The notes beneath the pieces are model-generated. The model was not told where the DNA came from. It did not search any database and saw only the letters and a list, made by a program, of their open reading frames with translations. A program made the position numbers and the translations under genes. Positions 2,497 to 11,890 of a stretch of DNA of 64,000 nt are shown here, in pieces. Position 1 is the first letter of the stretch; every line of letters begins with the position of its first letter. Source of the DNA: Bdellovibrionales bacterium (lineage in GTDB: Bacteria; Bdellovibrionota; UBA1018); NCBI GenBank assembly GCA_016786465.1, contig JAEUWC010000010.1, forward strand, positions 1 to 64,000, read 5' to 3'.

Positions 2497-3660
2497 ATGG
2501 GGACGGAAGAAAGAAAAACCAAAAAAGTCGGGCAGTTAGACCTGACCTCGGGAGTTCAAAGAGCCATCCGTGTTGGCCAAAAACTTCGTCCCGTATTCAT
2601 GATTGGGACCGCCCTTTTAATCATCACCCAGACGGTTGCCCTAAGCCCCAAGTCACTGGACCAATCGGATCGAAGCGACCTTGAACTTTCACCTGTTGAA
2701 TTGATCACCGGTCACCAGGCCGTCTTGGCCACGGGAATTCCAAAAGACAAGATTGCCGACTACACCATCGAAGGCTTCAAGTATTCCGCAAGCCAAGGAT
2801 CTTCACGTCAGTGGCGCCTGAATGCCATCCGCGCATTCTTGTACGACGAAGAAAAACTGGTTCACGCCATCGATATTCGCGCACAGTTGTTTGATGCCAA
2901 CGGACGGATCACCCACGTCACCGGGAAAGAAGCGAAGTACTTTTTAAACGGACGCGACCTGGAAATTTTCGGAGAAGTCGTCGCCACTTTCCCCGACGGG
3001 TTCGTTACACGAAGTCCTTACCTTCGCTATGTGGGATCCAAGCGACGAGTCGAAATTCCAGTTCCTATGCCGGTGATTGGTGACGGAAAAGCGACTGAGA
3101 CTTCCGAAAAGTTGGATTTTACAGCCCAAGGTCTTTCTTATTCGGCTGAAACAATGAAGTTAGAACTTTTGAAAGACGTAAAGGTCACTTTGACGTCTCG
3201 TCGTCGTAAGACCAATAACGTCACCATGATCGAATCGGATCGCTGCGAAATTCTTCGAGATACCCAAAAGGGATTCTTTTTCATGAACCCCGAGCGCCCA
3301 GCCAAGGATCGGTACGTGAAGATTTCAGAACCGACCTTGTTCGCGCGGGCGCGCAAGGCGCAGCTGGATTATGGAGACTATCGAAAAACCGTGAACTATC
3401 TGGTCATCAACGAAGACGTTCTTTTGAGGGAAATCGTCGATGGCAAGGCGTCTCTACGCTATGCGACGGGGGGTCGTGCAGAATTTGACAACGAAAAAAA
3501 CCAGGTGCGTCTGGGCGAATTTCCACAGATCTATGAAGACAACGACACCATTACGGGCGACTACATTCTTTTCAATCGCGATACGGATATTGTAGAAGTG
3601 GAACATGGGAATGCTTACAGTGAAGGAAGCATGATGAAGTCCCAGCCCAAAAAAGAATAG
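2497..3660 (+). CDS. LPS transport protein, LptC-LptA fusion
   Basis: The 387-residue protein has one N-terminal membrane anchor (about residues 32-50) and then two beta-jelly-roll stretches. Residues about 60-190 look like LptC (a YSA...RWRLNAIRA start and GKEAKYF). Residues about 205-380 look like the OstA/LptA fold, with the GGRAEFDNEKNQVRLG and DTITGDYILFNRDT blocks typical of LptA. It is followed after one base by lptB, as lptA-lptB are in other bacteria. In E. coli LptC and LptA are separate proteins that join head to tail across the periplasm; here they appear to be covalently joined. The domain reading is mine and not confirmed by a profile search. Confidence 0.75.
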   Translation: MGTEERKTKKVGQLDLTSGVQRAIRVGQKLRPVFMIGTALLIITQTVALSPKSLDQSDRSDLELSPVELITGHQAVLATGIPKDKIADYTIEGFKYSASQGSSRQWRLNAIRAFLYDEEKLVHAIDIRAQLFDANGRITHVTGKEAKYFLNGRDLEIFGEVVATFPDGFVTRSPYLRYVGSKRRVEIPVPMPVIGDGKATETSEKLDFTAQGLSYSAETMKLELLKDVKVTLTSRRRKTNNVTMIESDRCEILRDTQKGFFFMNPERPAKDRYVKISEPTLFARARKAQLDYGDYRKTVNYLVINEDVLLREIVDGKASLRYATGGRAEFDNEKNQVRLGEFPQIYEDNDTITGDYILFNRDTDIVEVEHGNAYSEGSMMKSQPKKE

Positions 3661-3661
3661 A

Positions 3662-4399
3662 ATGAGCAGAACCACTACTGAAACTTTGAAAGCAGTCGAC
3701 TTGTTCAAGGGATACAAAGGGCGCCCAGTCGTAAAAGGGGTCAGCTTTCAAGTTCGTCCCGGCGAAGTCGTCGGCCTTCTAGGTCCGAACGGCGCCGGTA
3801 AGACGACTTCGTTTTACATGGTCATCGGATTGGTCAAGGCGGACCAGGGAAAGATCCTTTTAGGCGACCAAGAACTTTCAGGTTTGGCGATGCACGAACG
3901 TGCTCGACGCGGAATTGCTTATCTTCCTCAGGAAGCCAGCGTTTTTCGCAAAATGACCGTCGAAGAAAATATTCTCGCAGTGTTGGAAACCCTTCCGTTA
4001 ACCGAGCACGAACGGAAAGACCGCCTGTACAAATTACTGGATGAATTCACGATCAATCATATCGCAAAGCAAAAAGCCTACACGCTTTCGGGCGGTGAAA
4101 GGCGTCGCGTTGAAGTCGCACGTGCGTTAGCGATTAACCCTTCTTTCGTCCTTTTGGACGAACCTTTTGCTGGGATCGATCCCAAGGCCGTTGCAGACAT
4201 TCAGAACATGATTCAGGTCCTCAAAAAGCGTCAAATTGGTGTCTTAATCACTGACCACAACGTTCGGGAAACATTGGCGATTTGTGATCTTGGATATCTT
4301 CTCTTTGATGGTAAAATCATGGTTCAAGGAACGCCTGCAGAAATCATCGCGAGTCCCTTGGCCCGCGAGAAATACTTTGGCGAGAACTTCCAGTTTTGA
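3662..4399 (+). CDS. lptB: LPS export ABC transporter ATP-binding protein
   Basis: Cytoplasmic ATPase that powers LPS extraction with LptF and LptG. At 245 residues it is the usual LptB size. Walker A is GPNGAGKTT, the signature is LSGGERRR, Walker B is FVLLDEPFAGIDP and the switch is TDHNVRETL. The segment YLPQEASVFRKMTVEENI is typical of LptB. It starts one base after the LptC-LptA gene ends, so the two are translated from one message. No lptF or lptG is present in the window. rpoN follows 27 bases later, the classic lptB-rpoN order. Confidence 0.96.
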   Translation: MSRTTTETLKAVDLFKGYKGRPVVKGVSFQVRPGEVVGLLGPNGAGKTTSFYMVIGLVKADQGKILLGDQELSGLAMHERARRGIAYLPQEASVFRKMTVEENILAVLETLPLTEHERKDRLYKLLDEFTINHIAKQKAYTLSGGERRRVEVARALAINPSFVLLDEPFAGIDPKAVADIQNMIQVLKKRQIGVLITDHNVRETLAICDLGYLLFDGKIMVQGTPAEIIASPLAREKYFGENFQF

Positions 4400-4426
4400 A
4401 ACTCATCGTGAATCAGGAATCCATCC

Positions 4427-5947
4427 ATGGCGTTTGAATTGAAACAGAGCCTTAGATTAAGCCAGCAGCTGGTGATGACGCCGCAGCTGCAGCAGGCGAT
4501 CAAGCTCCTTCAGCTGAACCGAATGGAACTGGCTGAAGTGATCAACCAGGAATTGGTTGAGAATCCGATCCTGGAAGAATCCGCAGACGGCAGCGACAAC
4601 ACAGAAGTCGATGCTTCGGGCGAAACCCAGGTTGCCGAAGGCGACGGCACATCGGCTTCAGACACTGAAGCCGAACAGCGTCGCGACGAAGAAAGCATGT
4701 TGAAGCCGCAGACTAAGGAAGAACAACTGGTCGCGGGACAAGACGACTTCAATTGGGAATCTTACGTCGAAGAATTCAATTCGTCGTCCAGCTCGGCGCC
4801 TTCGATGCGAGAAGTCAGCGAAGAACTGCCCAGCTTTGAAAACGTATTGACCAAGACGACGACCCTGGAAGACCACCTGATGTGGCAGCTTTCCATGGCC
4901 GCGTTGACCGACCAAGAACGTCGCCTGGGTGAACTGATCATCGGAAATCTTTCGGATGACGGATATTTCAGCGCGGCCTTTGACGACATCGTCAAGGAAT
5001 CCGGAATGGATCCTGAAGATGCCGAAGAAGTTCTGAAGATCATTCAGAACTTTGACCCAGTCGGTGTTGCGTCCCGAAACCTTCAAGAATGCCTGATGAC
5101 CCAAGCGAAGTTCATGAAGCCCCGTCAGGCGCTGGTGGAAAAGATCATCGAAGCCCACCTACCTGACCTTGAAAGAAAGAACTATTCTCAGATCGCGAAG
5201 GCACTAGCGATTCCGGTCGACAAGGTCATCGAAGCCACGCGCTTGATTTTGGAATTTGAACCCAAACCGGGCCGATCGTTCCATTCCAGCGACACTCAGT
5301 ACATCACGCCGGATATCTATGTTTACAAAGTGGGCGACGAATATTCGATCGTCCTGAACGAAGACGGCCTTCCGAAGCTTCGCATCAGCCCTTATTACAA
5401 AAACATTCTGCAAGCTGCGAAGACGGACCAATCTGCGGACAAGGGAAAAGTCACCAAAGACTATGTTCAAGACAAGCTTCGCAGCGCGATCTGGTTGATC
5501 CGCTCGATTCACAACCGCCAAAAGACCATTTATAAGGTGACCGAAGCAATCGTTCGTCGCCAGCGCGACTTCTTTGAAAAAGGCGTTCAACACCTGAAGC
5601 CGATGATTCTGAAAGACGTCGCCAACGATATCGGGATGCACGAATCCACGATTTCACGCGTCACGACCAATAAATTTGTGCACACACCGGTTGGGATCTT
5701 TGAATTGAAGTACTTCTTCAATTCCAGCATCAGTTCTGCGGACGGTTCAGATTCCTTGGCAAGCGAAGCCGTTAAGGAAAAAATCCGCCAAATGGTCGCG
5801 AAAGAAGATCCAAAGAATCCACTATCGGACCAAAAGATTGTCGAACTTCTTCGTGAAGAAAACATCGAAATCGCGCGGCGTACCGTCGCGAAGTACCGTG
5901 ATATGCTCAGCATCCTTTCTTCCAGTAAGCGGAAGAAAATCATCTAA
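4427..5947 (+). CDS. rpoN: RNA polymerase sigma-54 factor
   Basis: The 506-residue sigma factor recognises -24/-12 promoters and needs AAA+ activators. Region I is intact at the start (LKQSLRLSQQLVMTPQLQQA). An acidic linker spans about residues 50-110. The core-binding domain follows. The helix-turn-helix lies around DIGMHESTISRVTTNKFVHT, and the RpoN box ARRTVAKYRD is at residues 483-492. It lies between lptB and hpf, a linkage common in proteobacteria. A complete protein implies sigma-54-dependent genes elsewhere in the genome. Confidence 0.97.
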   Translation: MAFELKQSLRLSQQLVMTPQLQQAIKLLQLNRMELAEVINQELVENPILEESADGSDNTEVDASGETQVAEGDGTSASDTEAEQRRDEESMLKPQTKEEQLVAGQDDFNWESYVEEFNSSSSSAPSMREVSEELPSFENVLTKTTTLEDHLMWQLSMAALTDQERRLGELIIGNLSDDGYFSAAFDDIVKESGMDPEDAEEVLKIIQNFDPVGVASRNLQECLMTQAKFMKPRQALVEKIIEAHLPDLERKNYSQIAKALAIPVDKVIEATRLILEFEPKPGRSFHSSDTQYITPDIYVYKVGDEYSIVLNEDGLPKLRISPYYKNILQAAKTDQSADKGKVTKDYVQDKLRSAIWLIRSIHNRQKTIYKVTEAIVRRQRDFFEKGVQHLKPMILKDVANDIGMHESTISRVTTNKFVHTPVGIFELKYFFNSSISSADGSDSLASEAVKEKIRQMVAKEDPKNPLSDQKIVELLREENIEIARRTVAKYRDMLSILSSSKRKKII

Positions 5948-5965
5948 GAAACTTCCGGAGATTTT

Positions 5966-6268
5966 ATGCAATTAAACATGTCGTTCAAAAACATCGAACC
6001 CACCGAGGCCATTAAGAATTTTACCAAGGAAAAGTGCGAAAAATTGAATCGCTACTTCAACGGGAAGATCCACGTCACCTGGAACTTTTCGGTCGAACGT
6101 GAAACCCAGATCGCGCATTGCCACTTGGTTGGTAACCACATGGATTACTTTGGCGAGGCTTCAACGTCGGATCTTTACGCTTCAATCGAGGAAGCCATCG
6201 ACAAGATCGACCGCCAGCTGAAGAAGCACAAAGAAATCGTGAAGAACCACCATCAAAAGCAGGACTGA
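5966..6268 (+). CDS. hpf: ribosome hibernation promoting factor, short form
   Basis: A 100-residue protein of the HPF/YfiA family, which binds the 30S decoding region and promotes 100S ribosome dimers or inactive 70S in stationary phase. The beta-alpha-beta-beta-beta-alpha fold is visible, with the segment ASTSDLYASIEEAIDKIDRQ before the last helix and a basic tail (KKHKEIVKNHHQK). It has no long C-terminal dimerisation domain, so it is the short class. A GGAG Shine-Dalgarno (AACTTCCGGAG) precedes the ATG, and it lies 18 bases after rpoN, the usual place for hpf. Confidence 0.93.
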   Translation: MQLNMSFKNIEPTEAIKNFTKEKCEKLNRYFNGKIHVTWNFSVERETQIAHCHLVGNHMDYFGEASTSDLYASIEEAIDKIDRQLKKHKEIVKNHHQKQD

Positions 6269-6273
6269 TCCCG

Positions 6274-9200
6274 CTATTGCTGGTCGATATTGTAGGGTTC
6301 GCCGTTCGCCTTCTTGATCAACGAGTTGATCGCGACAGGAACCTTCATCACGTTTCGGATGCGCTCGTCATATGCGGGTTCATCCGGGAAGATCATCTTG
6401 TCGCCTGAACCGTTGGCATATTCCGGGTCCCGTTCCATAGCTTCGCGAATCTTTTCCCAGCTGGCTTCGTTGGCCCGGAACTGGTGTAGCATCTGGTATT
6501 CCGCCTGCGTTTCGTCGTTCGTAAACGTCGTAACCGTCGTGATCGAAGCCAAGATCCTTAAAATGGGTGAAAACGCCGCTTCCAGTTCGTTGACTACTTT
6601 GCTTTCTGACCAGCAGCTGGCGTTGTAGTAAACAAACTCGACCCCGTTGTTCTTTTCGCGATTCTTGATCCACAGCCCGAAGTCCTGGTTTGAAATCAGA
6701 ACGCTAGCTGCGTCGTCGGTTGAAGTCGAATCCGGATAGACCAAGTAAAAGACTTCTTCCGTTCCGTCTTTTCGCTTCTTTTTTCCGGTCTTCATTTTCG
6801 AAGCCTTCGACATTCGGAACAGGTTCTTTTCGTCTCCGTCTGAATGCGCTTCTTTCAAGAAGTAATCCAGTGTCCCGCTTTCGATCTGTTCTTTCAGAAA
6901 ATCCAAAGTCTTCGGAAGACTTTGGGCTTTTCCGAACTTGAACCCCTGATCTTCGTAATAGGCTTGGTATTCGTCCAAAGTCGGGACCGCGTCCTCGCCC
7001 ATATTACTTCCAGCGATCACCATCCCCGTAAGCTTTCCGTCTTTCAACATCGACTGGAAGTTCGCACTTGGAGTTGCAGGAATGACTTCGGAAATCGGCT
7101 TATCCATACGCGTGACTGACCAATCCATCTTAAAGGTCTCGCCGTTATGGGTCCAAGTCAGGACACTTGCGGGAACAATATCCAAACTTCCACCCGGCGT
7201 GCCTTCAGTCAATTGGACCACTGGCAGCAGCTTTGAATAAAATCCGTACTCGTTTCGATCGCCGACTCCGTCAATCGGCGAAGTTCCCAGAATCATCGGC
7301 TTGATTTCATCCGCGCTGCGAATCCAAGTAAAATCCGTCAGATTCTTTGGCTTGAAACCAAAGAAGTGATCCACAAACGATCGGGTAAACTTATAGAGCT
7401 TTGAAATAAATACCCCTTCTAAGTCGCCCTGACTTCCAGCTGCGTTCGCTAGACTCTGTGCGATCGAATCCGCCATCGCTTCCCGAGTCGTTTCCGGCAT
7501 TTTCGCCAAGAACGGCGTCAGGCTTTCAATTTCCTGCCAGACCCGCCAGTTCGTCCCTTGGGATTCCGGGAAACTGTCCATTTTTCTTTGGACGTATTTC
7601 TTAGCTGACTTCAAAGCTGACGCGAAAGCCGGACGCTTCAAATCCGCCGCGGTCAACTGAACCTTTCGACTGGTCGCTTCCCATTCCGGAAACCGTTGGA
7701 CCAACTGCTCGAAAAGAACCGGATATTCACCTGCGATATGAGCCGCAATAGCCGCAAATTCTTTCGGCATTTCCCGGTATGCGTTCTTCAACAAAAGTTC
7801 GACCAAACGCGGAGCATTCTTTGGTGGATCAAATCCATTCTTAATCCAAGCACCGACCTGTCGCTTGATTGCTGTCGGAGTATTGCTCGCCGGCTTAGCG
7901 ACCAAGCCCCCCGAAGCATCCGTCAGATTACGAAGATCCAAGCGGATGGTTTCTTTTGAACTAACCAAAACAGGTCCTGAACTGTCTTTGACCAGCTTGT
8001 TGCCGCCTTGGCTTTGCGCACGCGCGACTTCACGAAGGATGTCTTTACCTGGATCAAAGAAAAATACGCGCGAAACTCCATCGGTCTCGATCTTGATTAG
8101 GAACTGGCTGATCTTGGTGTCCAGAGCGATAACCGAATCCGCAATTCCGTAGGACACATTGCTGTAGTTTCCCAGCTTTGAAGCGTCGATTTCAAAGATC
8201 TTTCCGTCGCCCTGGCGGATAATCCGCACCGTGCCTTCTGATTCGCTAGTTCCGGAATAAGTGACCCACAGCGGTTCAGAATAATGGGCTCCGTTGCTCC
8301 CAGGGGGACTTGAAACTTCAAACTCTTTCTCAAGCGAATAGCTCAGGTCCGAATTGGACTTATGAAGCTGGGCAAAGTACTTGATGGTCTGGCCGTCTGC
8401 ACTGACTTCTTGCCGGGTCGTCATCAAGAACTGGCCGTTTTCGGACATGTCCGCCGATTCCACGGGCTTTTCCTTGGTTCCCAGCGCCTGCACGACTGCC
8501 CCAGTTTCCGCGTTGACGACTTGAACTGCTACCGTCGCACCATCATCCGCGTAACGAACAAACGTGATTCGCTTTCCATCTGAAGAAATTTCCGGTTGCG
8601 GCAAGTAATTCGGGTCAGTCATTTCGATGCCGGCCGTTTCGTAGCCTTTTCCGGTCTTTAAATTGAAGACCCCCAGCTTTCCGTCTTCCATCAGAACAGT
8701 GACATAATCGCCCCGCGACCAAGCCGACGTCTGCCGAACGGATTTCGAAAGTTCCCACGCAACCGATTTACCGGTCGCCACGTCAAAGAAATCCACGATG
8801 TTATTTTTTTCCAAGCGAACGCGCACGACGACCGGGCGTTCGTCAGGTCCTGCACGAGTATACAGCCCCTTGGCGGGTAGTTCGTGCTTGGTCAACTTCT
8901 TCGCTTGAGTGTCGTAGACCATGACCATCTTCGAGCGCTGAATGATGGCGTATTTTCCCGCCAGTTCTAAACTTGCGTCGAAATCGGGTTCGGTTTCGTA
9001 ATTCACAGGAGGAGTCTTGATCCGCGTGACTTTTCCAGTCAGCGTGTCGACTTCCATAAGCACCTGGGTGAAATTGTTTGAATCCATGGCGCTGTAATCG
9101 TAGCTCAACCCAATGCCCGTGCGCCAACTGGTGAACTGCAGCGTATGCGCAAGATAGTCGGCGGACATCCCGTCGTTCGGCCCGAATTCCGCTTTGATCG

Positions 9201-9333
9201 GATACGACTTGCCTGAAGCTAGAAGAAGATTCTTACAAACCTCGGCAACTTCGTCGACGGCGTGAACCCACGACGTAGGTGCCAATGTCAAAGCGACTAG
9301 GACGCTTAACCCGCGAAGCAGTGACTTATTCAT
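6274..9333 (-). CDS. large exported protein: beta-propeller plus putative caspase-fold peptidase domain
   Basis: 1019 residues with a clear signal peptide cut near residue 25 (VHA). Residues about 60-480 contain repeated WD40/TolB-like blades (SSDGKRITFV, SENGQFLMTT, FNLKTGKG, VVNAETGAVV). A helical middle part follows. The last 250 residues have the layout of a clan CD (caspase-fold) peptidase: a hydrophobic strand with LTGMVIAGS, then LDYFLKEAHSDGD with His830, then a second strand FVYYNASCWSES with Cys907. The His-Cys spacing (77) is longer than in classic caspases because of a basic insert (TGKKKRKDG). I infer a secreted or periplasmic peptidase; the substrate is unknown. Its stop is 6 bases from the end of hpf, tail to tail. 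Confidence 0.6.
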   Translation of the reverse strand: MNKSLLRGLSVLVALTLAPTSWVHAVDEVAEVCKNLLLASGKSYPIKAEFGPNDGMSADYLAHTLQFTSWRTGIGLSYDYSAMDSNNFTQVLMEVDTLTGKVTRIKTPPVNYETEPDFDASLELAGKYAIIQRSKMVMVYDTQAKKLTKHELPAKGLYTRAGPDERPVVVRVRLEKNNIVDFFDVATGKSVAWELSKSVRQTSAWSRGDYVTVLMEDGKLGVFNLKTGKGYETAGIEMTDPNYLPQPEISSDGKRITFVRYADDGATVAVQVVNAETGAVVQALGTKEKPVESADMSENGQFLMTTRQEVSADGQTIKYFAQLHKSNSDLSYSLEKEFEVSSPPGSNGAHYSEPLWVTYSGTSESEGTVRIIRQGDGKIFEIDASKLGNYSNVSYGIADSVIALDTKISQFLIKIETDGVSRVFFFDPGKDILREVARAQSQGGNKLVKDSSGPVLVSSKETIRLDLRNLTDASGGLVAKPASNTPTAIKRQVGAWIKNGFDPPKNAPRLVELLLKNAYREMPKEFAAIAAHIAGEYPVLFEQLVQRFPEWEATSRKVQLTAADLKRPAFASALKSAKKYVQRKMDSFPESQGTNWRVWQEIESLTPFLAKMPETTREAMADSIAQSLANAAGSQGDLEGVFISKLYKFTRSFVDHFFGFKPKNLTDFTWIRSADEIKPMILGTSPIDGVGDRNEYGFYSKLLPVVQLTEGTPGGSLDIVPASVLTWTHNGETFKMDWSVTRMDKPISEVIPATPSANFQSMLKDGKLTGMVIAGSNMGEDAVPTLDEYQAYYEDQGFKFGKAQSLPKTLDFLKEQIESGTLDYFLKEAHSDGDEKNLFRMSKASKMKTGKKKRKDGTEEVFYLVYPDSTSTDDAASVLISNQDFGLWIKNREKNNGVEFVYYNASCWSESKVVNELEAAFSPILRILASITTVTTFTNDETQAEYQMLHQFRANEASWEKIREAMERDPEYANGSGDKMIFPDEPAYDERIRNVMKVPVAINSLIKKANGEPYNIDQQ

Positions 9334-9658: not shown

Positions 9659-10948
9659 CTAGAATCCGACGCTGCGTTTAAAGGCGCCGATTAGACCGTT
9701 GTCGCTCAGGAACCAAGCCGTCAAACCGTCCGAGCTTAGCCCCATAACGTAAAGGTAGGCCCCTTCGGTAATGGGCAGGTCACGACGCGCCAAAATTTTG
9801 CCGTCTGACCGAACTTCAATCCAACGGATCTTACGGGTTCCATTTTCGATTTCTTCAAAGCTGGAAATGACTCCTTCGGGCGTACTGAGCAACGAGCCCG
9901 CAAAATCAGCCTGATTGGGAATTCCCCGATGCCATCGCGGCGCCGGCTTTCCGATTTCTAAAAAGGCCAAGCTTTGTCCCGTCGGAGCGTTTCCGTAGAT
10001 ATAGACACCTTCACCGTGCGAACTAAATTCGATGCTTTCAGCAGGAAATTCGATGTCCTGGTCCCGCTTTCCCAGCCGATCCCAAATCCGAAGCCTGGAT
10101 TTCCGGGATGCGCCTGGTTTCGCTTTTGACCCATACGCTGCAGTCAAAACGGCTACCGAAGGGGGCATATCCGTCCGGTCTGATCCGACCGGCGAAATCG
10201 CGAAATCCAGAAATTCGCCTTCCATTTCCTGTTCCCAAACTGAATCACGCCGGGCGACGTCGTAAAGCGCGACCCGACTTCGAGTCAGGGTCGCGGCCGC
10301 TCGCGAACCAGAAAGTGCAATTGCGATCCACTTTTGATCTGGTGAAGTCTTTAGCCCCAGGACGTCGCCGGGCGCAGGAAACTGCGCTACCTTTTCACCA
10401 CGATTCAAACTAAAAAGCGTGAAAGCCGTATCAGGATCTGCGTCGTCATCGTGAAAGCAAACGACCAGTTTGGCTTCGGCCAGGATTTTGGGTCGACAAG
10501 ATCCTCGGACTTTCCAGATCTGCTTGCCCGATGCTGCAAATGCGATCAGTTCGTCGGAATAATTGTTCATCACCGCGAAGCGTCCATCTTCAGACAGATC
10601 TAATGCCCGAACCTTATTCTTAAAGCTTTTTGACCACTGGACTTGATAACGAAGCGAAGCACCATTTAAGGTGCGACGGTAGCGGACCAATCGATAATCA
10701 TGTGGCCCTTCCCTTTCAGGATCAGGAATGGTCGCAATCAACGCAGCAGAACCGTCACGCGTCAACGCAAGGTCCGTAGCAATTCCGCTGACCATCGAAG
10801 TCCAAACACCTGTCTTGGGTTTTGGCTGCGCTTCCCAATGAATTCCTTCTGGAAAGGGAAAGGGTTCGATCGTCGATCCTGGGAAGGTCGTACACGCGAC
10901 CAAAGTCGTACCCAGTAGAACCGTATTGCAAAGCGCTCTGAAGCCCAT
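9659..10948 (-). CDS. putative lipoprotein with beta-propeller (WD40-like) fold
   Basis: The start is placed at base 10948 because residues from there form a lipoprotein signal with lipobox LVAC (MGFRALCNTVLLGTTLVAC), giving 429 residues. A longer reading from 11002 would add 18 residues without signal character and would run into rimK. The mature protein has blade-like repeats (ALDLSEDGRFAVMNNYSDE, TSPDQKWIAIALSG, GLSSDGLTAWFLSDN), so a propeller of about 6-7 blades is likely. It is divergent from rimK with only 15 bases between the starts. It lies upstream of, and in the same direction as, the exported pair at 6274-9611, and may share their process. Confidence 0.65.
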   Translation of the reverse strand: MGFRALCNTVLLGTTLVACTTFPGSTIEPFPFPEGIHWEAQPKPKTGVWTSMVSGIATDLALTRDGSAALIATIPDPEREGPHDYRLVRYRRTLNGASLRYQVQWSKSFKNKVRALDLSEDGRFAVMNNYSDELIAFAASGKQIWKVRGSCRPKILAEAKLVVCFHDDDADPDTAFTLFSLNRGEKVAQFPAPGDVLGLKTSPDQKWIAIALSGSRAAATLTRSRVALYDVARRDSVWEQEMEGEFLDFAISPVGSDRTDMPPSVAVLTAAYGSKAKPGASRKSRLRIWDRLGKRDQDIEFPAESIEFSSHGEGVYIYGNAPTGQSLAFLEIGKPAPRWHRGIPNQADFAGSLLSTPEGVISSFEEIENGTRKIRWIEVRSDGKILARRDLPITEGAYLYVMGLSSDGLTAWFLSDNGLIGAFKRSVGF

Positions 10949-10963
10949 GAAACTAGATGCTAA

Positions 10964-11890
10964 ATGCGCTTCGCAATTCTGTCTCGTAATAAAAATCTGC
11001 ACAGCATTCGCCGTTTACTTCAAGAAGCGAGAACGCTTGGGGTCGAGTGCGACATCATCAACCCACTGGACTGTCAACTGGTCGTCGATGGCCGCAACAG
11101 CTGCGTGCAGGTAGGAAACTTGATCCTTCCCCGATATGACGCAATTCTTCCGCGAATCGGAGCTTCAATTACCGAGTACGGCCTAGCCGTCGTTCGTCAC
11201 TTTGAAGCAACCGGATCATTTGTGATCAATCCTTCTTCGGCGATCTGGGAATCACGCGACAAAATGGCTTGTCTGCAGAAACTTTCACAAGCAGGACTGC
11301 CCGTGCCCGCGTCGGTTCTGGCGCGCTCACCGCGCGGACTTCGTACTGCGGTTCAAACCGTCAAAGGACTTCCGGTGGTTTTGAAAGTAATCCAAGGAAC
11401 GCAAGGTGTGGGCGTCATGTTGGTTCACACTGCGATCACACTAGGATCCGTGCTCGATACGCTTCGCGGCCTTGAACAAGACGTACTAATGCAGCAATTC
11501 ATGGCCGAAGCGGGTGGACGCGACTACCGTGCTTTCGTCGTTGGCGATCGCGTCGTCGCTGCAATGATGAGAACGGCACCAGAAGGAGAATTCCGTTCGA
11601 ATATTCACCGTGGGGGCGAGGGAACCTTGGTGAAGCTTCCAAAATCATTTTTGAATCTGGCCGTCAAAGCCACAAAGACGGTCGGACTTCGAGTCGCCGG
11701 TGTTGACATCATTACTGGCAAAGCGGACGGAAAAGGAAAAAAGGCCAAACTGAAGCCCATGGTGCTTGAGATCAACAGTTCACCTGGATTTGAAGGAATC
11801 GAAAAGGCGACCGGGCTGAATATTGCTCACGAGATCGTCGAGTACATGGCCAAAGAAGCTCAGAAAACTAAGAACCGAAAGCGCCGTTAA
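10964..11890 (+). CDS. rimK: ATP-grasp ligase, ribosomal protein S6 glutamate ligase type
   Basis: 308 residues matching RimK throughout: the MRFAILSRN start, the central ATP-grasp with LPVVLKVIQGTQGVGVM, and the metal/ATP site near LEINSSPGFEGIEKATG. In E. coli RimK adds glutamates to the C-terminus of ribosomal protein S6; family members also make other peptide ligations, so the substrate here is inferred. A lysine-rich insert (GKADGKGKKAKLK) lies before the MVLEINSS motif. Its TAA shares the palindrome TTAA with the stop of the convergent gene at 11887. Confidence 0.9.
   Translation: MRFAILSRNKNLHSIRRLLQEARTLGVECDIINPLDCQLVVDGRNSCVQVGNLILPRYDAILPRIGASITEYGLAVVRHFEATGSFVINPSSAIWESRDKMACLQKLSQAGLPVPASVLARSPRGLRTAVQTVKGLPVVLKVIQGTQGVGVMLVHTAITLGSVLDTLRGLEQDVLMQQFMAEAGGRDYRAFVVGDRVVAAMMRTAPEGEFRSNIHRGGEGTLVKLPKSFLNLAVKATKTVGLRVAGVDIITGKADGKGKKAKLKPMVLEINSSPGFEGIEKATGLNIAHEIVEYMAKEAQKTKNRKRR

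Follow-up and report, generated by a model that had tools for sequence, protein, structure and literature searches.

A candidate caspase-fold peptidase family with a beta-propeller and a small exported partner in Bdellovibrionota

The locus and its distribution

The window, a 64,000-nucleotide stretch of a Bdellovibrionales genome (GenBank assembly GCA_016786465.1, contig JAEUWC010000010.1), encodes a 1019-residue exported protein that combines a propeller-like N-terminal half with a C-terminal domain of predicted caspase fold (Table 1). The N terminus reads as a signal peptide, with the hydrophobic region LSVLVALTLA followed by VHA. The C-terminal domain carries His830 within the motif KEAHSDGD and Cys907 within NASCWS, which are separated by 77 residues. 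The export signal and both motifs had been pointed out in a first-pass annotation of this DNA and are borne out. The same annotation described the first half as a propeller, which holds clearly for the homologs, where WD40 repeats are strong (L014, E 5e-15; L068, E 2e-25), but only weakly for the window protein itself, whose beta-propeller Pfam match (E 9.5e-5) lies under the curated cut-off.

Table 1 Features of the peptidase locus, in positions of the window
Feature	Position	Strand	Basis
Propeller/helical/caspase-fold exported protein, 1019 aa	6274..9333	-	Intact ORF; homologs found
Signal peptide, residues 1-25, inferred cleavage after VHA	9259..9333	-	Sequence reading; hydrophobic N terminus in most homologs with intact 5' end
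Beta-propeller region, roughly residues 40-490	7864..9216	-	Pfam E 9.5e-5; clear WD40 in homologs
Helical domain, residues 493-658	7360..7857	-	AlphaFold2 secondary structure
Small beta region, residues 666-742	7108..7338	-	AlphaFold2 secondary structure
Predicted caspase-fold domain, residues 767-1008	6310..7035	-	AlphaFold2 topology; conservation
His830 codon, predicted catalytic His, end of strand 3	6844..6846	-	Conserved 30/31
Three-stranded insert, residues 837-867, strand 3 to helix 3, including the basic turn GKKKRKDG	6733..6825	-	AlphaFold2
Cys907 codon, predicted nucleophile, end of strand 4	6613..6615	-	Conserved 30/31; joint loss with His in L068
Exported partner, 93 aa	9330..9611	-	ATGA start/stop overlap with the peptidase gene; family alignment; β-β-α-β fold
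Propeller-like lipoprotein, upstream, probably outside the conserved unit	9659..11002	-	PQQ_2 E 0.0016; no match in the other loci compared

The gene for the 93-residue exported protein lies upstream of the peptidase gene, and its end overlaps the peptidase start by ATGA. Further upstream, an open reading frame for 447 residues carries the lipobox LVAC and matches PQQ_2 weakly. A block of three genes had been proposed in the annotation; the pairing of peptidase and partner recurs in 11 loci, but the lipoprotein has no match at the other family loci compared, and a block that includes it was rejected. The other neighbors of the peptidase gene vary between genomes. In one genome (G018), a second copy is directly followed by a gene for a 536-residue exported protein with a DHGG motif and a weak Peptidase_C13 match (E 0.0025; L019 4850-6457, minus strand). 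In two related genomes, the peptidase gene overlaps at its end with the gene of a DUF2891-like exported protein (L062 2808-4139 and L069 7575-8903). On the other side of the peptidase gene in the window, lptB-like ABC, rpoN-like, and hpf-like genes (2497-6268, assigned by eye) are convergent to it, and 5 bases separate its stop codon from that of the hpf-like gene. Adjacent HMG-CoA reductase-like and type 2 isopentenyl-diphosphate isomerase-like genes at 64-2414, also assigned by eye, suggest a mevalonate pathway in this genome.

The window's own genome holds a single copy of the propeller/caspase-fold gene. Homologs are present in 11 genomes in a search of 143 relatives, and of 369 genomes of the phylum, 33 match a profile of residues 493-1019, a count that includes the genome of the window. 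About 31 homologs, found in Bdellovibrionota only, align across residues 500-1019; the N-terminal half diverges fast, with its WD40 repeats still recognizable. The named records are assigned to Bdellovibrionales, Bdellovibrionaceae, Oligoflexia, and one Deltaproteobacteria metagenome-assembled genome, assignments that are interpreted here as Bdellovibrionota. A pattern scan of 84,980 species yielded no relatives outside Bdellovibrionota, with the proviso that it required an EAHS-type motif and diverged members may escape it. A scan of a genome collection gave no match with the single protein as query and nine loci with the alignment as query, and the phage and plasmid collections contained no relatives. 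One diverged member (L023 6866-9868, plus strand) has GHSGG and SSCFSG, which are nearer to the textbook caspase-fold motifs; its C-terminal part matched none of the known sets.

Active-site residues and predicted fold

His830 and Cys907 are each conserved in 30 of the 31 homologs, so that neither position is variable, a point on which the first-pass annotation had made its reading depend. Together with Arg892 and Pro983, with which they are tied, they are the most conserved of 494 alignment columns. As both residues rank in the top four of these columns across 31 homologs, their conservation exceeds chance. The exception at both sites is one and the same protein, L068, in which the histidine is replaced by arginine (SRSDGD) and the cysteine by tyrosine (GYWS), while the propeller is kept and no small partner gene is adjacent. 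This joint loss fits a predicted catalytic dyad that has been lost in an inactive member. A conserved pair with the histidine first is characteristic of clan CD. The residue after the histidine departs from that clan: the family mostly shows H-S-x-G, with glycine at +3 in 29 of the 31 members, instead of the His-Gly that is marked as a conserved clan CD feature (PMC12445089).

Cysteines 33 and 907 are the only ones in the window protein. Cys33 (9235-9237) lies a few residues past the predicted signal cleavage site and is kept in most homologs, including L068; in the window protein and in L017, the N-terminal cysteine is the sole one besides the predicted catalytic cysteine. A latency disulfide between Cys33 and Cys907 was therefore considered, but it is not favored because L068 keeps the N-terminal cysteine without the predicted catalytic one.

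The C-terminal half was modeled with AlphaFold2 from an input of 29 sequences, giving a model of 527 residues with a pLDDT of 92.4 and a pTM of 0.88. The predicted domain begins with β1 (767-774), α1 (776-795), β2 (804-806), α2 (809-819), and β3 (824-828), after which His830 is placed. Three strands follow (837-867), then α3 (882-895) and β4 (900-905), which leads to Cys907. The last part consists of α4 (910-920), β5 (925-930), further helices, and a final strand (1000-1008). Caspases have six strands, with the histidine and the cysteine at the C-terminal ends of β3 and β4 and a small three-stranded sheet between β3 and α3 (PMC4357240). The modeled order of elements along the chain is thus that of caspases through β5, this sheet included, and the two residues are predicted at the expected strand ends, in agreement with the caspase-fold end that had been claimed for the protein. 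The long His-Cys spacing, which had been called unusual and said to hold a basic insert, is explained in the model by the three-stranded section with its basic turn.

The exported partner

Small exported genes adjoin the peptidase gene in 11 loci, in ten of them upstream (overlapping or within a few bases) and in one downstream (L072); the small exported neighbor described from the window alone is therefore a recurrent one. Cys38 and Cys66 are the only invariant residues in the ten copies first aligned. The partner is a real family, with a predicted β-β-α-β fold whose core lies mostly above a pLDDT of 90. It has no consistent Pfam match, and a Foldseek search with it returned no meaningful relative.

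A search of the phylum gave the 11 paired copies and seven confident solo copies in another family (f10). On the peptidase tree, the members with a partner do not group together but are scattered; hence, the pair is probably old and the partner has probably been lost repeatedly. A gene pairing that is conserved in 11 loci spread over the tree is what is expected of a cognate inhibitor, and inhibition is the first choice for the role of the partner, tentative as this is. A chaperone or folding factor comes second and is a possibility to which less weight is given. The solo copies imply that the partner is also of use apart from this peptidase. They are small two-cysteine exported proteins (L102, L103, L104, L105, L106, L107, and L108). 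Except in L103, the basic tail is extended and the gene is convergent to an M42-like aminopeptidase gene (assigned by eye).

Interpretation and comparison with known systems

None of the known peptidase families was matched in Pfam, NCBIfam, and PDB sequence searches, and NCBIfam gave no match anywhere in the 1019 residues. The families C11, C13, and C14, against which a check had been proposed, show no sequence membership, either in the Pfam scan or in profile comparisons with C11, C13, and C14 proteins collected from the same phylum. The Pfam scan gave no match to PF00656 (C14), for which the profile comparison likewise indicates no membership, none to PF03415 (C11) around the active site, and none to PF01650 (C13); PF01364 (C25, gingipain) was covered by the Pfam scan only and was not matched either. 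Matches to calmodulin, caused by an EF-hand-like stretch up to HSDGD, are regarded as chance similarity (best E 0.04). Since the predicted fold and the dyad point to clan CD and no named family that was tested fits, the protein looks like the representative of a new family. It is probably a cysteine peptidase, either secreted or periplasmic, that has the caspase (clan CD) fold and belongs to a family not named before. In such an enzyme, Cys907 would attack the peptide bond and His830 would protonate the leaving group, while the N-terminal beta-propeller and the helical domain may serve in substrate recognition or in gating. The 93-residue protein, translated first from the overlapping gene, would most likely restrain the peptidase or aid its folding.

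The same domain could instead support a different His-Cys chemistry, that of a transpeptidase or ligase attaching secreted proteins to something, like GPI transamidase or the C13 asparaginyl ligases. Legumain-type enzymes perform both reactions with one active site (PMC9604545), the dyad order and the predicted fold are the same, and the protein is exported. This reading is nevertheless unlikely, as the genes have no dedicated substrate protein beside them apart from the small partner, and no sequence similarity ties the protein to C13 enzymes. A binding protein that retains histidine and cysteine in a structural role or to bind metal is rather improbable: no activity is known for the family and L068 lives without both residues, but the joint loss of exactly these two, and their places after β3 and β4, favor catalysis.

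A generic three-layer α/β fold with coincidental His and Cys positions is very improbable, although two comparisons speak for it. Foldseek found no significant match to the 527-residue model in the PDB, perhaps because the model carries extra domains; legumain is the sole clan CD entry among the 50 matches listed (E 1.2, TMt 0.39). In the profile comparison, the score of the C13-like set is a weak 19.9 (equalled or exceeded by 1 of 100 column shuffles, against 13-14 for the control families), and the hhalign score of legumain, 15.0, is within its shuffles (maximum 19.9); in both cases, unexplained outliers among the shuffles were set aside (132.95 for the C13-like set, 132 and 134.7 for legumain). 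On the other side, the order of all elements fits a caspase, including the three-stranded insert, and the C13-like set alone gives a long alignment, which starts at strand 1, reaches the cysteine, spans 133 columns, and brings the active-site regions roughly into register. Furthermore, the top Foldseek match among viral models is an annotated C14 caspase-domain protein (E 1.4e-3), followed by a 232-residue Solivirus protein (E 2.3e-3, probability 0.98) and, a hundredfold behind these two, by a third match (E 0.22); the top two superpose poorly over their whole length (rmsd 26 and 11, TMq about 0.2).

Caspase-fold proteases are familiar mainly for their part in intracellular cell death, and Bdellovibrionota is a phylum known for bacterial predators. 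If the reading as a cysteine peptidase is correct, the exported propeller proteins add a new family to clan CD and offer a testable candidate for extracytoplasmic protein processing in some of these bacteria, the recurrent small partner is a possible natural inhibitor fold, and L068 is a ready comparison as a naturally dead member, as predicted. It is a more speculative and rather doubtful extension that this new clan CD family of Bdellovibrionota consists of secreted, propeller-gated caspase-like proteases with a small cysteine-paired exported inhibitor of their own, which would be used against other cells or in envelope remodeling.

Among the known families, C11 (clostripain) shares the predicted fold of the clan and the order of the dyad with the window protein and is common in the same phylum; the window genome has a C11 gene of its own elsewhere (contig C16). 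The C11 profile match to the window family, however, falls away from the active site. Legumain and other C13 enzymes share the predicted strand-helix order, and strand 1 of legumain, VAGSN, resembles VIAGSN in the window protein. They lack the N-terminal propeller and the helical domain, and they have His-Gly where the window family has H-S-x-G. An equivalence of Asn777 with Asn42 of legumain was dropped because Asn42 is situated four residues beyond the GSN of legumain. The 77 residues between histidine and cysteine in the window protein contrast with 41 in legumain (His148/Cys189; PMC9604545), 42 in caspase-7 and 46 in PmC11 (PMC4357240), and 46 in YabG of Clostridioides difficile (PMC12445089).

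Cyanobacterial metacaspases (C14) with WD40 repeats exist, some of them without the dyad (PMC2853523). They combine a caspase-type fold and a beta-propeller in one bacterial protein, as is the case here; the domain pairing as such is therefore not new. The window protein differs from them in its N-terminal propeller, its export signal, and the absence of a PF00656 match.

The gene pair finds a likeness in pairs of the staphopain/staphostatin type, in which the gene of a small inhibitor lies beside that of a secreted cysteine peptidase. The peptidase clan is a different one, the partner of the window protein is itself exported and usually encoded upstream, and inhibition is hypothetical here.
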